Shown piece after piece: positions 6,359 through 10,504 of a stretch of 33,091 nucleotides of DNA; position 1 is the first letter of the stretch; the number at the start of each line of letters is the position of its first letter. The notes beneath the pieces are model-generated. The model worked only from the letters and a program-made list of their open reading frames with translations, made no database searches and was not told where the DNA came from. Origin of the DNA: Caulobacteraceae bacterium (GTDB lineage: Bacteria; Pseudomonadota; Alphaproteobacteria; Caulobacterales; Aquidulcibacteraceae); the NCBI GenBank assembly GCA_009773335.1, contig WRPF01000054.1, forward strand, positions 1 through 33,091, written 5' to 3'. Both the position numbers and the translations under genes were made by a program.

Positions 6359-6543
6359 GGTCCACCATATCTGTCGTGGGCGCCTCTGATGGGCGCCGTT
6401 GTCAGCTTTCTTAAACGGAGGTTCCAAAGGTCGCGTTAAAATGGGACAGAAAAAACCAATTCTTTTCGTTGGTTAACGCCCGTGAACGCTTTGCCACGGC
6501 GATCCCGCGGGACGCAGGCCCGCCGCCGCCCTATCTAGTCGGC

Positions 6544-7902
6544 ATGAGTGAAGACACGCCCAAGGACCCCGAACGCAACCGCCTCGCCGCCCGCGCCGGG
6601 CGCTTTGCGAGCGTGGGCGCAAATACGGCGGGGGCTGTCGCCTCGGCGGGGTTTTCGGCGCTGTTCGGCGGCGATGCGGCGGACAGGCAGATCGCCATGG
6701 CGCTGAAGGCCGCCCTCGGGCGCACCAAGGGCCCGCTCATGAAGGTCGCGCAGATGATGGCGACCATCCCGGACTTCCTGCCCCCCGAATACGCCGAGGA
6801 ATTCGCGCAGCTGCAGATGAACGCGCCGTCCATGGGTTGGCCCTTCGTGCAGCGGCGCATGCGCGGCGAGCTCGGCGCGGACTGGGAGGCGAAGTTCTCA
6901 AGCTTCACCCGCGAAGCCGCCGCCGCAGCGTCCCTTGGCCAGGTCCACCGCGCAGTCACCGCCGACGGTCGCGATGTCGCGTGCAAGCTTCAGTATCCCG
7001 AGATGGCGAGCGCGGTGGAAAGCGACATCGGCCAGATGCAGGGCATCATCGGCCTCGTGAAGCGGATGAACCGCCTCGTCGATCCCACGGAAATGGGCCT
7101 AGAGATCGCCGATCGCCTCCGCGAGGAACTCGACTACGAACGCGAGGCCAAACACATCGCGCTCTACCGGCTGATGCTGGAGGGCGACGACACGATTGTC
7201 CCGCCCGCGCCCGTGCCGGAGCTGTCGACGAAGCGCCTGCTGACGATGACGTGGCTCGAAGGCCGTCCGCTGAAGAGCTTCCTCGACGCCGATCAGGACA
7301 CCCGCAACCGCATCGCGACGCTTCTCTTCCGCGCCTGGTGGGGGCCGATGTCGCGCTACGGCGTGATCCACGGCGACCCGCACCTCGGCAACTACACCTT
7401 CACCGACGACGCGCGCGCGCTGAACCTCCTCGACTTCGGCTGCGTGCGCATCTTCCCGCCGCGCTTCGTGCAGGGCGTGGTGAACCTCTACCGCGCGCTC
7501 GACGCAAATGATCAGGACGCCATCCGCCAGGCCTATGCGGACTGGGGTTTCGGCGACTTGAGCGACGGTGCGGTCGAGGCGCTCACCATCTGGGCGCGCT
7601 TCATCTACGGGCCAATGCTGGACGACCGCGTGCGCCGCGTGGCCGAAGGCGTGAGCCCCGGCATGTACGGCCGCGCGGAAGTCATGGACGTGAAGCGCCG
7701 GCTCATGGAGCACGGTCCGGTCGCGATCCCGCGCGAGTTCGTGTTCATGGACCGCGCCGCCATCGGCCTCGGCGCGGCGTTCCTGCATCTGGATGCCGAG
7801 ATGAATTTCCGGGCGCTGTTTGAAGCGCAGATCGAGCAGTTCGAATTGGAGGCCGTGGGAGTGAGACAGGCGGAAGCGCTTGCGACGGTGGGGCTGGCCT
7901 GA
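6544..7902 (+). CDS. AarF/ABC1/UbiB-family atypical kinase
   Basis: This 452-residue protein has the ABC1 signature set: the KxGQ-like extension as KVAQMMATIPDFLPPEY, the alanine-rich loop AAAASLGQVHRA replacing a normal P-loop, the Lys in VACKLQYP, EELDYEREAKH, the catalytic HGDPHLGNYTF and the metal-binding LLDFG. Relatives (UbiB, COQ8/ADCK) support ubiquinone synthesis through an ATPase or small-molecule kinase activity, but bacterial paralogues of this length differ from UbiB and the role is uncertain. Gly of KxGQ is Ala here. ATG 6544 was preferred over an upstream TTG. It is divergent from the response regulator. Confidence 0.85.
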   Translation: MSEDTPKDPERNRLAARAGRFASVGANTAGAVASAGFSALFGGDAADRQIAMALKAALGRTKGPLMKVAQMMATIPDFLPPEYAEEFAQLQMNAPSMGWPFVQRRMRGELGADWEAKFSSFTREAAAAASLGQVHRAVTADGRDVACKLQYPEMASAVESDIGQMQGIIGLVKRMNRLVDPTEMGLEIADRLREELDYEREAKHIALYRLMLEGDDTIVPPAPVPELSTKRLLTMTWLEGRPLKSFLDADQDTRNRIATLLFRAWWGPMSRYGVIHGDPHLGNYTFTDDARALNLLDFGCVRIFPPRFVQGVVNLYRALDANDQDAIRQAYADWGFGDLSDGAVEALTIWARFIYGPMLDDRVRRVAEGVSPGMYGRAEVMDVKRRLMEHGPVAIPREFVFMDRAAIGLGAAFLHLDAEMNFRALFEAQIEQFELEAVGVRQAEALATVGLA

Positions 7903-8065
7903 TCGACACGGGAGCGTTATTGGCCCAATCCAGACATTCGGACCATTCATGCGAGGGCCGCGCGCGAGGTTAGGATGCAACCTAGAAGCCGACGTTGGGT
8001 CGTTTGGTTCTTGGCAATCGGCGAAAACCAGACTTACGCGAGGCGCTCCACCCCAACCTCACAAA

Positions 8066-8214
8066 ACTCAGTCATTCCGGGGCGGCCGGAGGCCGAACCC
8101 GGAACCCAGGGGACTGGGTTTTAGTGTTTCGACTTGTGCGTTCGTTTCACGCTTGAACCCCTGGGTTCCGGCTCTCCGCGAAGCTGCGCTTCGCTCCGGC
8201 CGGAATGACTGAGT
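8066..8214 (+). repeat. Long palindromic repeat, copy 1 (149 bp)
   Basis: The ends are a perfect 15-bp inverted repeat (ACTCAGTCATTCCGG and its complement) that extends outward with one mismatch. Inside lies a second inverted pair around GGAACCCAGGGG / CCCCTGGGTTCC with an asymmetric centre (ACTGGG on the left, CTTGAA on the right). It starts 163 bases after the AarF-type gene and lies just beyond the GIY-YIG gene's stop. The stretch from 7903 to 8065 shows nothing recognisable. Confidence 0.85.
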
Positions 8215-8235
8215 CTTGTTGTCCCCGCGGATTTC

Positions 8236-8571
8236 CTATTGGCCCCAGACATCGTCGTCGCGCAGATCGCGCGGCAGCATGAGGTCGCGCTCCAGGTCGA
8301 GCCATTGCGGATTGGCTTTTTCGATCAGCGCGATTTTCCACGCGCGCCGCCAGCCCTTGATCTGTTTCTCCCGCGCGATGGCGACATTGATATCGTCGTG
8401 CCGCTCGAACCACACGAGCCGCCTGCAACCGTACTTGGCGGAAAAGCCCGAGAATTCGCGGCGTCGATGCTGCCCGGCGCGCGTGAGGAGATCGCTGGTG
8501 ACGCCGAGATAGAGCGTGCCGTTGCGTTCGCTCGCGACGAGATACACCGCTATGAAGTCGTAGCGAGCCAA
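8236..8571 (-). CDS. GIY-YIG family small nuclease
   Basis: This 111-residue protein has the GIY-YIG core: Tyr10 in FIAVYLVAS, Tyr21 in GTLYLGVTS, Arg31 in LLTRAGQHR and catalytic Glu68 in AIAREKQIKGW, followed by the conserved WRRAWKIALIEKANP segment of the UvrC-URI-like COG2827 group. The TTG start at 8571 was chosen because GGGGGA precedes it and the domain starts right after. The same frame is open further upstream to an ATG at 8760 with a good GAGGAA site, but that extension only translates the neighbouring repeat. The gene is enclosed by two palindromic repeats of one family in opposite orientation. A role in moving or trimming those repeats is inference. Confidence 0.8.
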   Translation of the reverse strand: MARYDFIAVYLVASERNGTLYLGVTSDLLTRAGQHRRREFSGFSAKYGCRRLVWFERHDDINVAIAREKQIKGWRRAWKIALIEKANPQWLDLERDLMLPRDLRDDDVWGQ

Positions 8572-8596
8572 CTCAAATCCCCCGCCACATTTAACG

Positions 8597-8718
8597 CTGT
8601 CATTCCGGCCGGAGCAACGCGGAGCGTTGCGCAGAGCCGGAACCCAGGGGTTCAAGCGCTCTATCTCGCCCAGTCCCCTGGGTTCCGGATCAGCGCTTCG
8701 CGCTGTCCGGAATGACAG
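8597..8718 (-). repeat. Long palindromic repeat, copy 2 (122 bp, inverted relative to copy 1)
   Basis: The ends are a perfect 12-bp inverted repeat (CTGTCATTCCGG and its complement). The inner GGAACCCAGGGG / CCCCTGGGTTCC pair is the same as in copy 1, but the asymmetric centre is reversed: TTCAAG is on the left and CCCAGT on the right. Copy 2 therefore lies in the opposite orientation and directly upstream of the GIY-YIG start. Confidence 0.85.
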
Positions 8719-8735
8719 AGATATTTGATGTGGCG

Positions 8736-8764
8736 CCATTGACTTTTGTCCTATGTTCATGTTT
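8736..8764 (+). promoter_or_regulatory. Candidate sigma-70 promoter for the rpmE leader
   Basis: TTGACT, 17 bases, TTTTAT gives four to five matches in each hexamer to the sigma-70 consensus. It is the only such pair I noticed between repeat copy 2 and rpmE. On the opposite strand the same stretch holds a GAGGAA ribosome-binding site and ATG at 8760. Weak evidence. Confidence 0.3.
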
Positions 8765-9206
8765 TATTTCCTCATCGCTTCCGCATGGAGGGCGGCCGGC
8801 CACCGTTCGACGGCGCGGGAGCGATGTGAGCGAGCGTGACGAGCCTGCGGGACTAAGGGGTCACATGATCCCCCAACCGCAGGGGTCCGGGGCTCCGGCG
8901 ACGAACGCGCCGGTCCCGCACGCCGCCGGCCAGCCGCCTGGGGGTTGAAAATCCAGACCCGATCGCGGCCGTCGGCGCCCAACGCCCACGGGGACGCGGA
9001 GCGGACTGCGATCTCTCATGACCCCTGCCGCCGAAAGGCGGATGCGCGGAACGATCCGCGTCCCCTGCCCTCCATTCTGGGCATGAAGTGCGAACCCGCA
9101 TCGGCGGACGCTGATGCATGGGTGGAGCGCCTTTTCACCGTCCGCCCTTGCGCATCAACAGCCGAACGGCTATCAGCCCCGCCTTCACCGAGACCGCGAG
9201 CGCCCC
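8765..9206 (+). other. Gene-free GC-rich leader before rpmE
   Basis: These 442 bases hold no convincing protein-coding frame. They are rich in self-complementary segments, for example a hairpin CGCGGA-ACGA-TCCGCG near 9050–9066 and an AGCCG-AA-CGGCT hairpin near 9163. No tmRNA, RNase P, SRP or riboswitch motif was recognised. It may be a structured 5' leader of rpmE or an unrecognised small RNA. Confidence 0.35.
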
Positions 9207-9434
9207 ATGAAGTCCGAAGGCCACCCCGACTACCACTTCATCACTGTCCAGATGACGGACGGGACGACCTACAAGACCCGCTCGACCTACGGGGCCGAGG
9301 GCGCGACGCTGGCGCTCGACATCGATCCCAAGACCCACCCGGCGTGGACCGGCGGCAACGCCCAGATGATGGACCGCGCGGGCCGCGTCTCGAAGTTCAA
9401 CGACAAGTTCGGCGGCTTCATGCGCAAGAAATGA
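9207..9434 (+). CDS. rpmE: 50S ribosomal protein L31
   Basis: This 75-residue protein begins [19 protein letters not shown] and contains [13 protein letters not shown] and [12 protein letters not shown], the L31 signature. It lacks the CxxC zinc pair, as usual for the alphaproteobacterial form. It is part of the large ribosomal subunit at the inter-subunit bridge. ATG 9207 was chosen over an in-frame upstream start because L31 begins there. The stop codon lies at the edge of a GC-rich inverted repeat and a terminator follows. Confidence 0.95.
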
Positions 9435-9446
9435 CCGCCGACGGCG

Positions 9447-9486
9447 GTCATTCCGGACGGCGAAGCCGATCCGGGATCTCGTGACA
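9447..9486 (+). repeat. Fragment of a TCATTCCGG-type repeat
   Basis: Right after rpmE, GTCATTCCGGACGGCGAAG begins like the arms of the two palindromic repeats at 8066 and 8597 and continues CCGATCCGGGATCTC. Only one arm is recognisable, so this is either a half element or a member of a related family. Confidence 0.5.
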
Positions 9487-9500
9487 CAGCATCCCCACCG

Positions 9501-9530
9501 AACGCCGCTCCCTATGGGGGCGGCGTTTTT
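9501..9530 (+). terminator. Rho-independent terminator of rpmE
   Basis: AACGCCGC at 9501–9508 pairs with GCGGCGTT at 9520–9527, and T residues follow directly. It lies 66 bases after the rpmE stop. Confidence 0.85.
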
Positions 9531-9595
9531 CGTTTGCGCCTCCCGCGTTGCGCCCGATCGGCCGAAGTGCGATCTCACGACGATCGGAGGGTTCC

Positions 9596-10504
9596 ATGAA
9601 ACGGTTTCTGACTGTCGCCGCAGCGCTTGGCTTGGCCGCGTGCGCAACGGCCCCCGCCGCCCCGGTCGCGACGGCGCCGAAGACCACCGCCGAGATCCTC
9701 GCCGCGAGCCCCGCCGCCGACTGGCGCACGCTCGATCTCCCCGCCACGCTTGTGATGACCCTCGCGGGCGGACGCACGGTGGTGATCGAACTCAACACGA
9801 CGTTCGCGCCAAAGACCGCCGCCAACATCCTCACGCTCGCGCGCCAGCAGTATTTCGACGGCCTCGCTGTGCTGCGCGTGCAGGACAACTTCGTCACCCA
9901 GTGGGGCGATCCCGACGGCGAGACCGATCACCCGAAACCGCTCGGCGCGGCGGCCGCGCGCATTCCGGCGGAATTCTCGCGCGATCGCGCGGCAGGCCCG
10001 TTCGTGAAGCTGCCCGACGGCGACGGCTTTGCGCCGGAAGTGGGTTTCGTCGGCGGCTTTCCCGTCGCGCGCGATCGCAACGCCGCCTGGCTCACGCACT
10101 GCTATGCGATGGTCGGCGCCGGGCGGAACAACGACCCCGACAGCGGGCCGGGCTCGGAGCTCTACGTCGTCATCGGCCACAGCCCCCGCCAGCTCGACCG
10201 CAACATCACGCTTGTCGGCCGCGTCGTGCAGGGCATGGAGCATCTCGCGGCGCTGCCGCGCGGCACAGGCCCCCTCGGCTTCTACGAACAGCCCGCGCAG
10301 CGCACGGCCATCGAGAGCCTGCGCATCGCCTCCGAGCTCCCCAGCGGCGGCGCTGCGGGGCGGCTTGAAGCGCTGAGCACGACGAGTGCGACCTTCACCG
10401 CCCTTATCGAGGCGCGCCGCAACCGTCGCGACGACTGGTACAAGGTTCCCGCCGGCCACATCGACCTGTGCAGCGTGCCGCTGCCGGTGCGCGCGAAGCC
10501 CTGA
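9596..10504 (+). CDS. Cyclophilin-type peptidyl-prolyl isomerase lipoprotein
   Basis: This 302-residue protein has a lipoprotein signal (LGLAAC, Cys about residue 16) and a cyclophilin-like domain from about residue 45: [50 protein letters not shown], and late [12 protein letters not shown]…[11 protein letters not shown]. Classical cyclophilins have FHRV…QGGD, here altered to LRVQ…QWGD, so isomerase activity is uncertain. Insertions relative to the 160-residue core are normal for this family. ATG 9596 follows GGAGGG. It is likely inner-membrane-anchored and periplasmic, assisting folding of exported proteins. Confidence 0.85.

Follow-up and report, generated by a model that had tools for sequence, protein, structure and literature searches.

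A short GIY-YIG nuclease gene between inverted pairs of REP-like hairpins: a candidate nuclease–repeat cassette in Caulobacteraceae and other bacteria

Results

The locus

The window, by which we mean the whole analysed stretch of 33,091 nucleotides from a Caulobacteraceae bacterium, carries a GIY-YIG nuclease gene situated between two copies of a palindromic element, and this cassette is placed between a gene for a UbiB/ABC1-type kinase and rpmE (Table 1). The distance between gene and repeat amounts to 26 bp on the side of copy 1 and to 27 bp on the side of copy 2. Each copy is itself an inverted pair of hairpin units with the organization GTCATTCCGG..CCGGAACCCAGGGG – spacer – CCCCTGGGTTCCGG..CCGGAATGAC, and in folds computed with DNA parameters a unit reads GTCA – TTCCGG (inner hairpin) CCGGAA – CCCAGGGG, the GTCA head and the CCCAGGGG tail being unpaired. 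Copy 1 is identical to the reverse complement of copy 2 in 102 of 114 aligned bases and to copy 2 in direct orientation in 89 of 99, and since the reverse complement gives the better fit the two copies are inverted with respect to each other. The inverted-repeat score around the gene (locus L120) compares with a maximum of 29 in 92 intervals of the same length slid along 19 kb of the contig, which bears out the claim of the earlier note that the nuclease gene is bracketed by inverted copies of a long palindromic repeat.

Table 1. Features of the cassette and its neighbours (positions in the window)
Feature	Position	Strand	Evidence
Complete cassette: GIY-YIG gene with a repeat pair on one side and an inverted one on the other	8071..8716		inverted-repeat score 90
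GIY-YIG nuclease gene, 111 aa, TTG start, stop at 8236-8238	8236..8571	-	PF01541, E 1.1e-11
Copy 1 of the palindromic element, 139 nt, 3' side of the gene	8071..8209		hairpin units in inverted orientation, separated by a spacer of 45 nt
Copy 1 hairpin unit: unpaired GTCA head, TTCCGG..CCGGAA stem, inner hairpin, CCCAGGGG tail	8071..8112	+	DNA-parameter fold
Copy 1 hairpin unit, inverted	8158..8209	-	DNA-parameter fold
Copy 2, 118 nt, 5' side of the gene, orientation opposite to copy 1	8599..8716		sequence alignment
Copy 2 hairpin unit	8599..8650	+	DNA-parameter fold
Copy 2 hairpin unit, inverted	8675..8716	-	DNA-parameter fold
Neighbour outside the cassette: UbiB/ABC1-type kinase gene	6469..7902	+	PF03109, E 1e-52
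Neighbour outside the cassette: rpmE, ribosomal protein L31	9114..9434	+	PF01197, E 3e-22

The surroundings of the cassette contain further repeated DNA. A stretch of 83 nt just outside copy 1 (7938-8020) has a 100% copy on contig C64 of the same genome and a 90% match over 100 nt in genome G038. The gap between the cassette and rpmE is repetitive (8770-9073): pieces of 30–230 nt match five other contigs of the own genome as well as places in G028, G029, G046 and others, and one of the copies has a Y1 transposase gene (L306) at a distance of 0.7 kb. Rfam gave no match to 8770-9073 at the gathering score and nothing in a scan of 7500-9600. About 13 bp past the stop codon of rpmE there is a single GTCATTCCGG hairpin (TCATTCCGGACGGCGAAGCCGATCCGGGA, 9447-9475), which perhaps acts as a terminator.

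The nuclease

PF01541 is the sole Pfam domain found in the window protein, for which NCBIfam offered no usable name; many of its relatives begin with MARY... In 18 aligned sequences, the window protein included, Y10, Y21, G23, R31, H35, and E68 are invariant. A larger alignment of 54 rows (the window protein and 53 of 80 loci, 14 of the 80 having stops in the matched stretch and 13 more being omitted against redundancy) retains Y21, G23, R31, H35, and E68 as invariant positions and Y10 in at least 90% of the rows. The two conserved tyrosines, the arginine, the histidine, and the glutamate are presumably the catalytic residues of the GIY-YIG fold.

The nearest protein in a profile search is UPF0213 BH0048 (E 2e-9). 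An AlphaFold model of the window protein (mean pLDDT 88.5) has UPF0213, SLX1, and UvrC-N as its nearest solved structures, all of them weak matches and none with E <0.001, those to SLX1 having E values of 0.04 and above. SLX1 is a nuclease for branched DNA, an activity that would fit a hairpin or cruciform substrate. From the SLX1-like fold of the model we infer that such structures are plausible substrates of the window enzyme.

The dN/dS ratio was between 0.03 and 0.16 in all 38 gene pairs with a defined value and was undefined in five more; these pairs are more than 80% identical and free of stops, many of them share members, and many have a dS near or above 1. Such low ratios indicate selection for a working protein and thus, as judged from the substitutions, the GIY-YIG gene is maintained by purifying selection. 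Decayed copies of the gene exist as well (e.g., L103).

Repeat units in the own genome and in the collected loci

The own genome, a draft of 285 contigs and 4.04 Mb, contains 35 exact copies of CCGGAACCCAGGGG and 71 copies of GTCATTCCGG, versus 0 and 1 for the respective controls, a reversed pattern in the case of CCGGAACCCAGGGG. A search for the opposite-orientation layout in loci collected from the genome yielded 17 distinct complete unit pairs, six of which are exactly 100 bp long with a spacer of 16 nt. When the layout was not imposed, 26 of the 33 adjacent gene-less units found elsewhere in the loci were arranged with their heads outward, one was reversed, and six had the same direction. 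The units closest to genes are head-outward in 30 of 52 cases, the remaining arrangements numbering 10, 7, and 5; with the definition used for the gene-less units the figure is 25 of 47. Hence head-outward is the commonest layout for gene-less pairs and also for the nearest units around the genes.

The repeats vary from locus to locus, many of them being hairpins of the form (C)GTCAT.CC..GG..CCA upstream of the gene and the reverse of it downstream. Yet the left and right repeats of a given cassette agree even where the cassettes of one genome have different repeat families, as in the own genome and in the locus pairs L146/L189 and L157/L161. Seven PF01541 genes are present in the own genome, and the window-type repeat brackets, within 1.5 kb, only the gene described here. 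Another member of this subfamily in the genome (C169, 58% identical) has copies of a different hairpin repeat on its two sides, and its flank score is modest (36).

The gene is bracketed by repeats in most of the relatives examined

For the flank test the 350 bp to the left of a gene were compared with the 350 bp to its right in inverted and in direct orientation, and intervals of the same length slid through the locus were used as control; score thresholds of 40, 50, and 60 were set in the first analysis, and 36 was added after the output had been seen. In the family set, which comprises 53 genes from 31 of 60 genomes, inverted matches of at least 40 were found for 24 genes and for none of 2,101 slid intervals, direct matches of at least 40 for 27 genes and four intervals, and matches of at least 36 in either orientation for 34 genes. 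The loci of the named-genome set were picked by protein similarity alone, and one of 80 (L127) was dropped because of a short flank. Here the inverted arrangement was found for 58 of 79 genes (14 of 6,526 intervals), the direct one for 39 (60 intervals), and either of them for 67.

In the pooled set inverted scores of at least 40 were obtained for 82 of 132 genes versus six of 1,127 other open reading frames of the same loci (1 of 398 for those of at most 600 nt), and matches in either orientation for 100 of 132 versus 21 of 1,127 (6 of 398), the control frames having been called by a simple longest-ORF method. Hairpin units of the type GTCA..CCA are present on both sides of 52 of the 132 genes and of three of the 1,127 other frames. 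Some of the 132 loci are orthologous (nine sphingomonads have one site in common, three have another, and there are further pairs), so that the effective sample is smaller. A class-wide sample, made up of the best-scoring locus per genome in 30 of 123 gene-bearing genomes and including the own-genome gene C169 that is already in the family set, gave 23 of 30 in either orientation and 17 of 30 inverted.

According to the record titles the hosts include alpha-, beta-, gamma-, delta-, and zetaproteobacteria, Planctomycetes (with a Scalindua), and an Omnitrophus. In a plasmid collection 32 records match the protein, and six of the eight loci that were opened are bracketed (L312-L316, L318); a gene on a Rhizobium plasmid (L311) has no bracket and a repeat pair downstream only, and a gene on a Spirosoma plasmid (Bacteroidota, L317) has a score of only 34 and a hairpin pair upstream. 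At score 40 no matching repeats on both sides were found for 32 of the 132 genes, among them members of the window clade such as L068-L074, and in at least one of these (L072) repeat pairs are confined to a single side.

Two further arrangements were seen among the loci. The genes L089, L108, L139, L149, and L174 lie between long direct repeats of more than 100 nt that include non-hairpin DNA, as if the whole repeat array had been duplicated upon arrival of the gene. In two species of genus g2 (L108, L109) the cassettes seem, as judged by eye, to adjoin one and the same gene in opposite directions, as though flipped by recombination between their own inverted repeats.

Abundance of the repeat in genomes with and without the gene

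The gene has a patchy distribution, being present in 31 of the 60 genomes of the family and in 123 of the 385 of the class, with several copies in some genomes. Those 16 genomes of the family that encode a close homologue have a median of 54 copies of GTCATTCCGG, compared with a median of 10.5 for the remaining 44 (p 1.5e-6), and within a single genus the values are 54 in 12 genomes with such a homologue and 21 in 18 without it (p 0.001); the bit-score cut for a close homologue was chosen after the table had been seen, and these genome correlations ignore phylogeny. On the level of the class, five or more copies of the generic pattern GTCATYCC-N6-36-GGRAYCCA are found in 58 of the 123 gene-bearing genomes and in 20 of the 262 others (Fisher p 3e-18, phylogeny ignored), and ten or more in 47 and 11 of them, respectively. 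Counted by family, with the labels f1 to f174 taken as the families sampled, the figures are 41 of 76 families with the gene and 7 of 98 others.

No match to the generic pattern was found in 37 of the 123 gene-bearing class genomes, and some genomes of this kind carry other hairpins (L212, L225, L230, L233). Conversely, 11 class genomes have at least ten copies and no gene. A laxer search (E<=1e-3) still found none in nine of them and distant matches in the remaining two (best E 3e-13 and 6e-12), and the family genome G049 has 177 repeat copies and no gene match. Thus, the repeats are able to outlive the GIY-YIG gene or to do without it.

The earlier note had named equal abundance of the repeat in genomes lacking the gene, together with unflanked gene copies elsewhere, as findings that would speak against its reading. 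Neither is what we see, as the repeat is commoner where the gene is present and the other copies of the gene are mostly flanked as well. The resemblance to REP elements and their RAYT transposases, with a GIY-YIG enzyme in place of the transposase, which the note had also put forward, therefore holds for the anatomy and the distribution, although repeat-rich genomes without a detected gene do exist.

Presence and absence at conserved sites

We refer to two sphingomonad sites by gene names that reflect our own reading of the flanks. In the gap between mdh and sucD the cassette is present in L135, L153, and L161 and a bare repeat pair in L130; L134, L141, and L146 have neither, and L144, L148, and L177 have other DNA. 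In the gap between odhB and lpd nine sphingomonad loci contain the gene, whose presence could not be detected in L135, L153, and L161. At a site in genus g2 the cassette is found in G006 and G008, the gene of G008 being decayed; G004 has other hairpin repeats and no gene, and G001, G003, and G005 have neither (G002 and G007 gave no match, G009 only one flank). The site of the window itself has the UbiB-type gene followed by another gene, without a cassette, in two congeneric genomes, and in a genome of another genus it has repeat pairs of another type together with a GIY-YIG gene. Finally, the gltA–lpxB site is occupied in Sinorhizobium meliloti Ak57, and Sinorhizobium sp. C101 has there a collapsed hairpin and one unit without the gene.

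We found no insertion with a clean target-site duplication, the flanks being too diverged except in one close-strain case. In this case Sinorhizobium medicae L337 differs from L335 and L336 (98% identity) by 161 bp near a GIY-YIG remnant, at a place delimited by half of a hairpin and by a complete one. We considered this as an insertion and rejected it: the half hairpin that is left and the AGCC shared at the junction indicate that the difference is probably a repeat-mediated deletion.

Gene-less repeat loci with apparent remnants of the nuclease gene

Three repeat loci harbor apparent remnants of a GIY-YIG gene, each scored against 20 shuffles. In S. meliloti Ak57 a pair beside the intact cassette encloses the leader and the last 26 codons of the gene (score 111, shuffle maximum 43). 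In the own genome a pair of 180 bp on contig C77 encloses RDFYEGFPLPRHMRE, which is similar to the C-terminus RDLYEDFLLPRHLRQ of a relative (58 versus 45), and in S. medicae the DNA after a hairpin looks like the start of the gene, as judged by eye, fused to its end (56 versus 41). These are the positives among 24 segments in a targeted scan which did not count the intact cassette and left 36 candidate repeat pairs under 130 bp unscored; one segment was borderline (50 versus 42) and 20 showed nothing clear. Hairpins close both sides of the remnants at L314 and L327, and L332 has an intact hairpin on its upstream side only. An earlier and general scan, of 48 spacers, missed the three positive places and gave no remnant above the null (best 42, null maximum 47), and a tblastn search for partial genes returned mostly read-through into repeats. 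Gene remnants within repeat loci are as expected of MITE-like deletion derivatives, and to judge by their contents some bare pairs look like derivatives of cassettes that have arisen by internal deletion.

A second GIY-YIG subfamily and the Y1 transposases

A second GIY-YIG subfamily, represented by a gene on contig C101 of the own genome, is present in seven of the 60 family genomes with one gene each (L299-L305), two of which (L302, L303) were already among the 53 and 132 genes as L118 and L119. It is accompanied by TTCGACAAGCTCAG hairpins, TTCGACA(A/G)GCTCAG, on both sides in five of the seven genes and on one side in two. Thus, there are at least two GIY-YIG clades, each with a repeat of its own.

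The own genome has five Y1 transposase genes, and none of them has a window-type repeat within 350 bp, so that a RAYT as mobiliser of the window repeat was rejected. One of these five Y1 (HUH) transposase genes (L309, C164:50214-50447) lies in a long inverted repeat with a score of 112 that is unlike the window repeat and is apparently a separate TIR-type element of the same genome.

Discussion

In our judgement the association between the gene and the repeats is beyond reasonable doubt. As to its meaning, we consider it reasonably probable that the loci are widespread REP–nuclease cassettes in which an SLX1-like GIY-YIG nuclease acts on its own REP hairpins and spreads them by means of host repair. 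The enzyme would recognise the REP hairpin, either single-stranded or extruded as a cruciform, and nick next to its head (GTCA) or its tail (CCA), both of which are unpaired. To our knowledge, no transposition chemistry has been described for stand-alone GIY-YIG enzymes of this class. As GIY-YIG enzymes hydrolyse DNA without a covalent intermediate, repair of the break would fall to the host, with another REP locus as the template, and in this way the hairpin pair would spread, occasionally together with the gene. A cassette that underwent internal deletion would become a bare pair that could still be used in trans. The most likely account of the gene-less hairpin pairs is that they are dispersed non-autonomous relatives of the cassette.

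The main rival to nuclease-driven mobilisation is homing, in which the nuclease gene would be a free-standing element that lands in pre-existing REP pairs, the repeats being its targets and multiplied by something else. GIY-YIG enzymes include the classic homing endonucleases, as the accessible text of a survey of the superfamily states (PMC1564403), and one would then understand that repeats occur without the gene, that gene-bearing and gene-less pairs are both head-outward, and that L130 has a bare pair at the mdh–sucD site where other sphingomonads have the cassette. However, the window protein differs from typical homing endonucleases in that it has only 111 aa and no further Pfam domain, the repeats flanking one cassette resemble each other even though the repeat families differ among the cassettes of one genome, and the repeats are scarcer where the gene is absent. 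We regard homing as rather unlikely.

Less likely still is a role in host housekeeping or defence. The nuclease would in this case resolve hairpins or cruciforms at the repeats or act against phages, and the gene would be kept between repeats for its regulation, for example by a terminator or by mRNA processing. The weak matches to SLX1-like folds and the strong purifying selection are in agreement with such a role, as are reports, in the accessible parts of the respective papers, that Caulobacter crescentus has three genes of this kind, one of them with an SOS box (PMC1839093), and that a phage regulator represses two Caulobacter GIY-YIG genes (PMC10688885). On the contrary, the patchy presence, the multiple copies, the decayed gene L103, and the presence or absence at otherwise conserved sites look selfish.

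We find it very improbable that the repeats are mobilised by a RAYT or another transposase with the GIY-YIG gene as an accidental companion. Y1 transposase genes are at hand in the own genome, but the window repeat is missing from the 350-bp flanks of all of them, the available text on CGTC repeats links no transposase to these (PMC3733652), and recurrence in 100 of 132 loci with differing repeats is not expected of an accidental companion. Chance or an assembly artefact at repeats, which a draft of 285 contigs might suggest, is practically negligible, as the cassette lies inside a 33-kb contig, the same layout is found in large contigs and in complete plasmid records, and the control rates are near zero.

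Returning to the mobilisation of REP hairpins by the nuclease, a broader statement may be considered, to which we give an even chance: short GIY-YIG nucleases may be a second, independent solution to REP mobility, with several subfamilies (at least the GTCA..CCA and the TTCGACAAGCTCAG clades) each driving its own repeats by hairpin cutting and host repair. If this is true, there is a class of non-autonomous mobile elements powered by a hydrolytic, structure-specific nuclease and not by a transposase, and the CGTC REPs, both in Alphaproteobacteria and in other phyla, would be accounted for. The association further suggests a role for many small proteins annotated as ‘UvrC-like’ or ‘GIY-YIG nuclease family’, as well as a rule by which more pairs of nuclease and repeat may be found.

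Comparison with known systems

With insertion sequences and their MITEs the cassettes have in common a gene-bearing form and internally deleted derivatives, the latter with intact ends in the targeted scan (L314, L327) and not seen in the general scan, but the ends of the cassette are hairpins and not plain terminal inverted repeats. Free-standing GIY-YIG homing endonucleases of the I-TevI type are alike in being nuclease genes able to spread via break repair; the window gene differs from them in that it encodes no extra domain, is intergenic and not intronic, and is bracketed by dispersed repeats. The window protein shares the GIY-YIG fold and the core residues (two Tyr, Arg, His, Glu) with the SLX1 and UPF0213 nucleases, but it has no domain beyond this one and the genes reside in REP cassettes.

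REPs are common repeats of bacterial chromosomes, and their CGTC superfamily has no known mobilising enzyme. In the available text of their description these are short hairpins with an unpaired head of the GTC type and a CCA tail, often in opposed pairs, which predominate in Alphaproteobacteria and are apparently without a dedicated transposase, and the authors consider that the mobilising enzyme might have vanished early (Di Nocera et al. 2013, PMC3733652). The window units have an unpaired CCCAGGGG tail of the CCA type and the opposed pairs. Their heads, however, are AGTC or TGTC and not CGTC in all four units, an inner hairpin takes the place of the loop of 4–5 nt, and in contrast to the stem of 8–9 bp that starts from a paired AT the A at the first stem position is unpaired. 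CGTC heads do occur in several relatives (L131, L155, L156, L164). By these features the window repeat stands close to the CGTC-tagged REP superfamily without being a member in the strict sense, and many of the cassette repeats belong to the CGTC type or lie near it.

A link between GIY-YIG genes and REPs did not appear in our literature search, which covered mainly titles and abstracts and left out most subscription journals and all preprints, so that its absence is unproven. The string ‘giy’ does not occur in the accessible text on CGTC REPs (PMC3733652), nor does ‘palindrom’ in that of the 2006 survey of the GIY-YIG superfamily (PMC1564403), and ‘giy’, ‘nuclease’, and ‘transposase’ have no occurrences in the accessible text of a 2025 REP survey.

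The closest parallel is the REPtron, that is, GTAG-type REPs with their RAYT. In both systems a single small nuclease gene is flanked by REP hairpins, gene-less pairs are dispersed, and, as the available text describes for the RAYT side, one genome may hold several repeat families, each with a gene of its own, and repeats may persist without the gene (PMC3733652). The nuclease genes studied here are flanked by REP-like palindromes in most loci, as in REPtrons, but only PF01541 matches are found, the enzyme is unrelated to the Y1/HUH transposases, and the head is GTCA-like and not GTAG. As the enzyme is not a HUH transposase, the cassette would work like a REPtron without being one, and the GIY-YIG nuclease would have the role of the RAYT of GTAG-type REPs. 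We propose the SLX1-like nuclease as a strong candidate for the partner of CGTC-type REPs, RAYT-like in its role and from an unrelated enzyme family. With a gene that recurs between the repeats, co-varies with them, and leaves remnants among them, the question of the CGTC mobiliser becomes directly testable.
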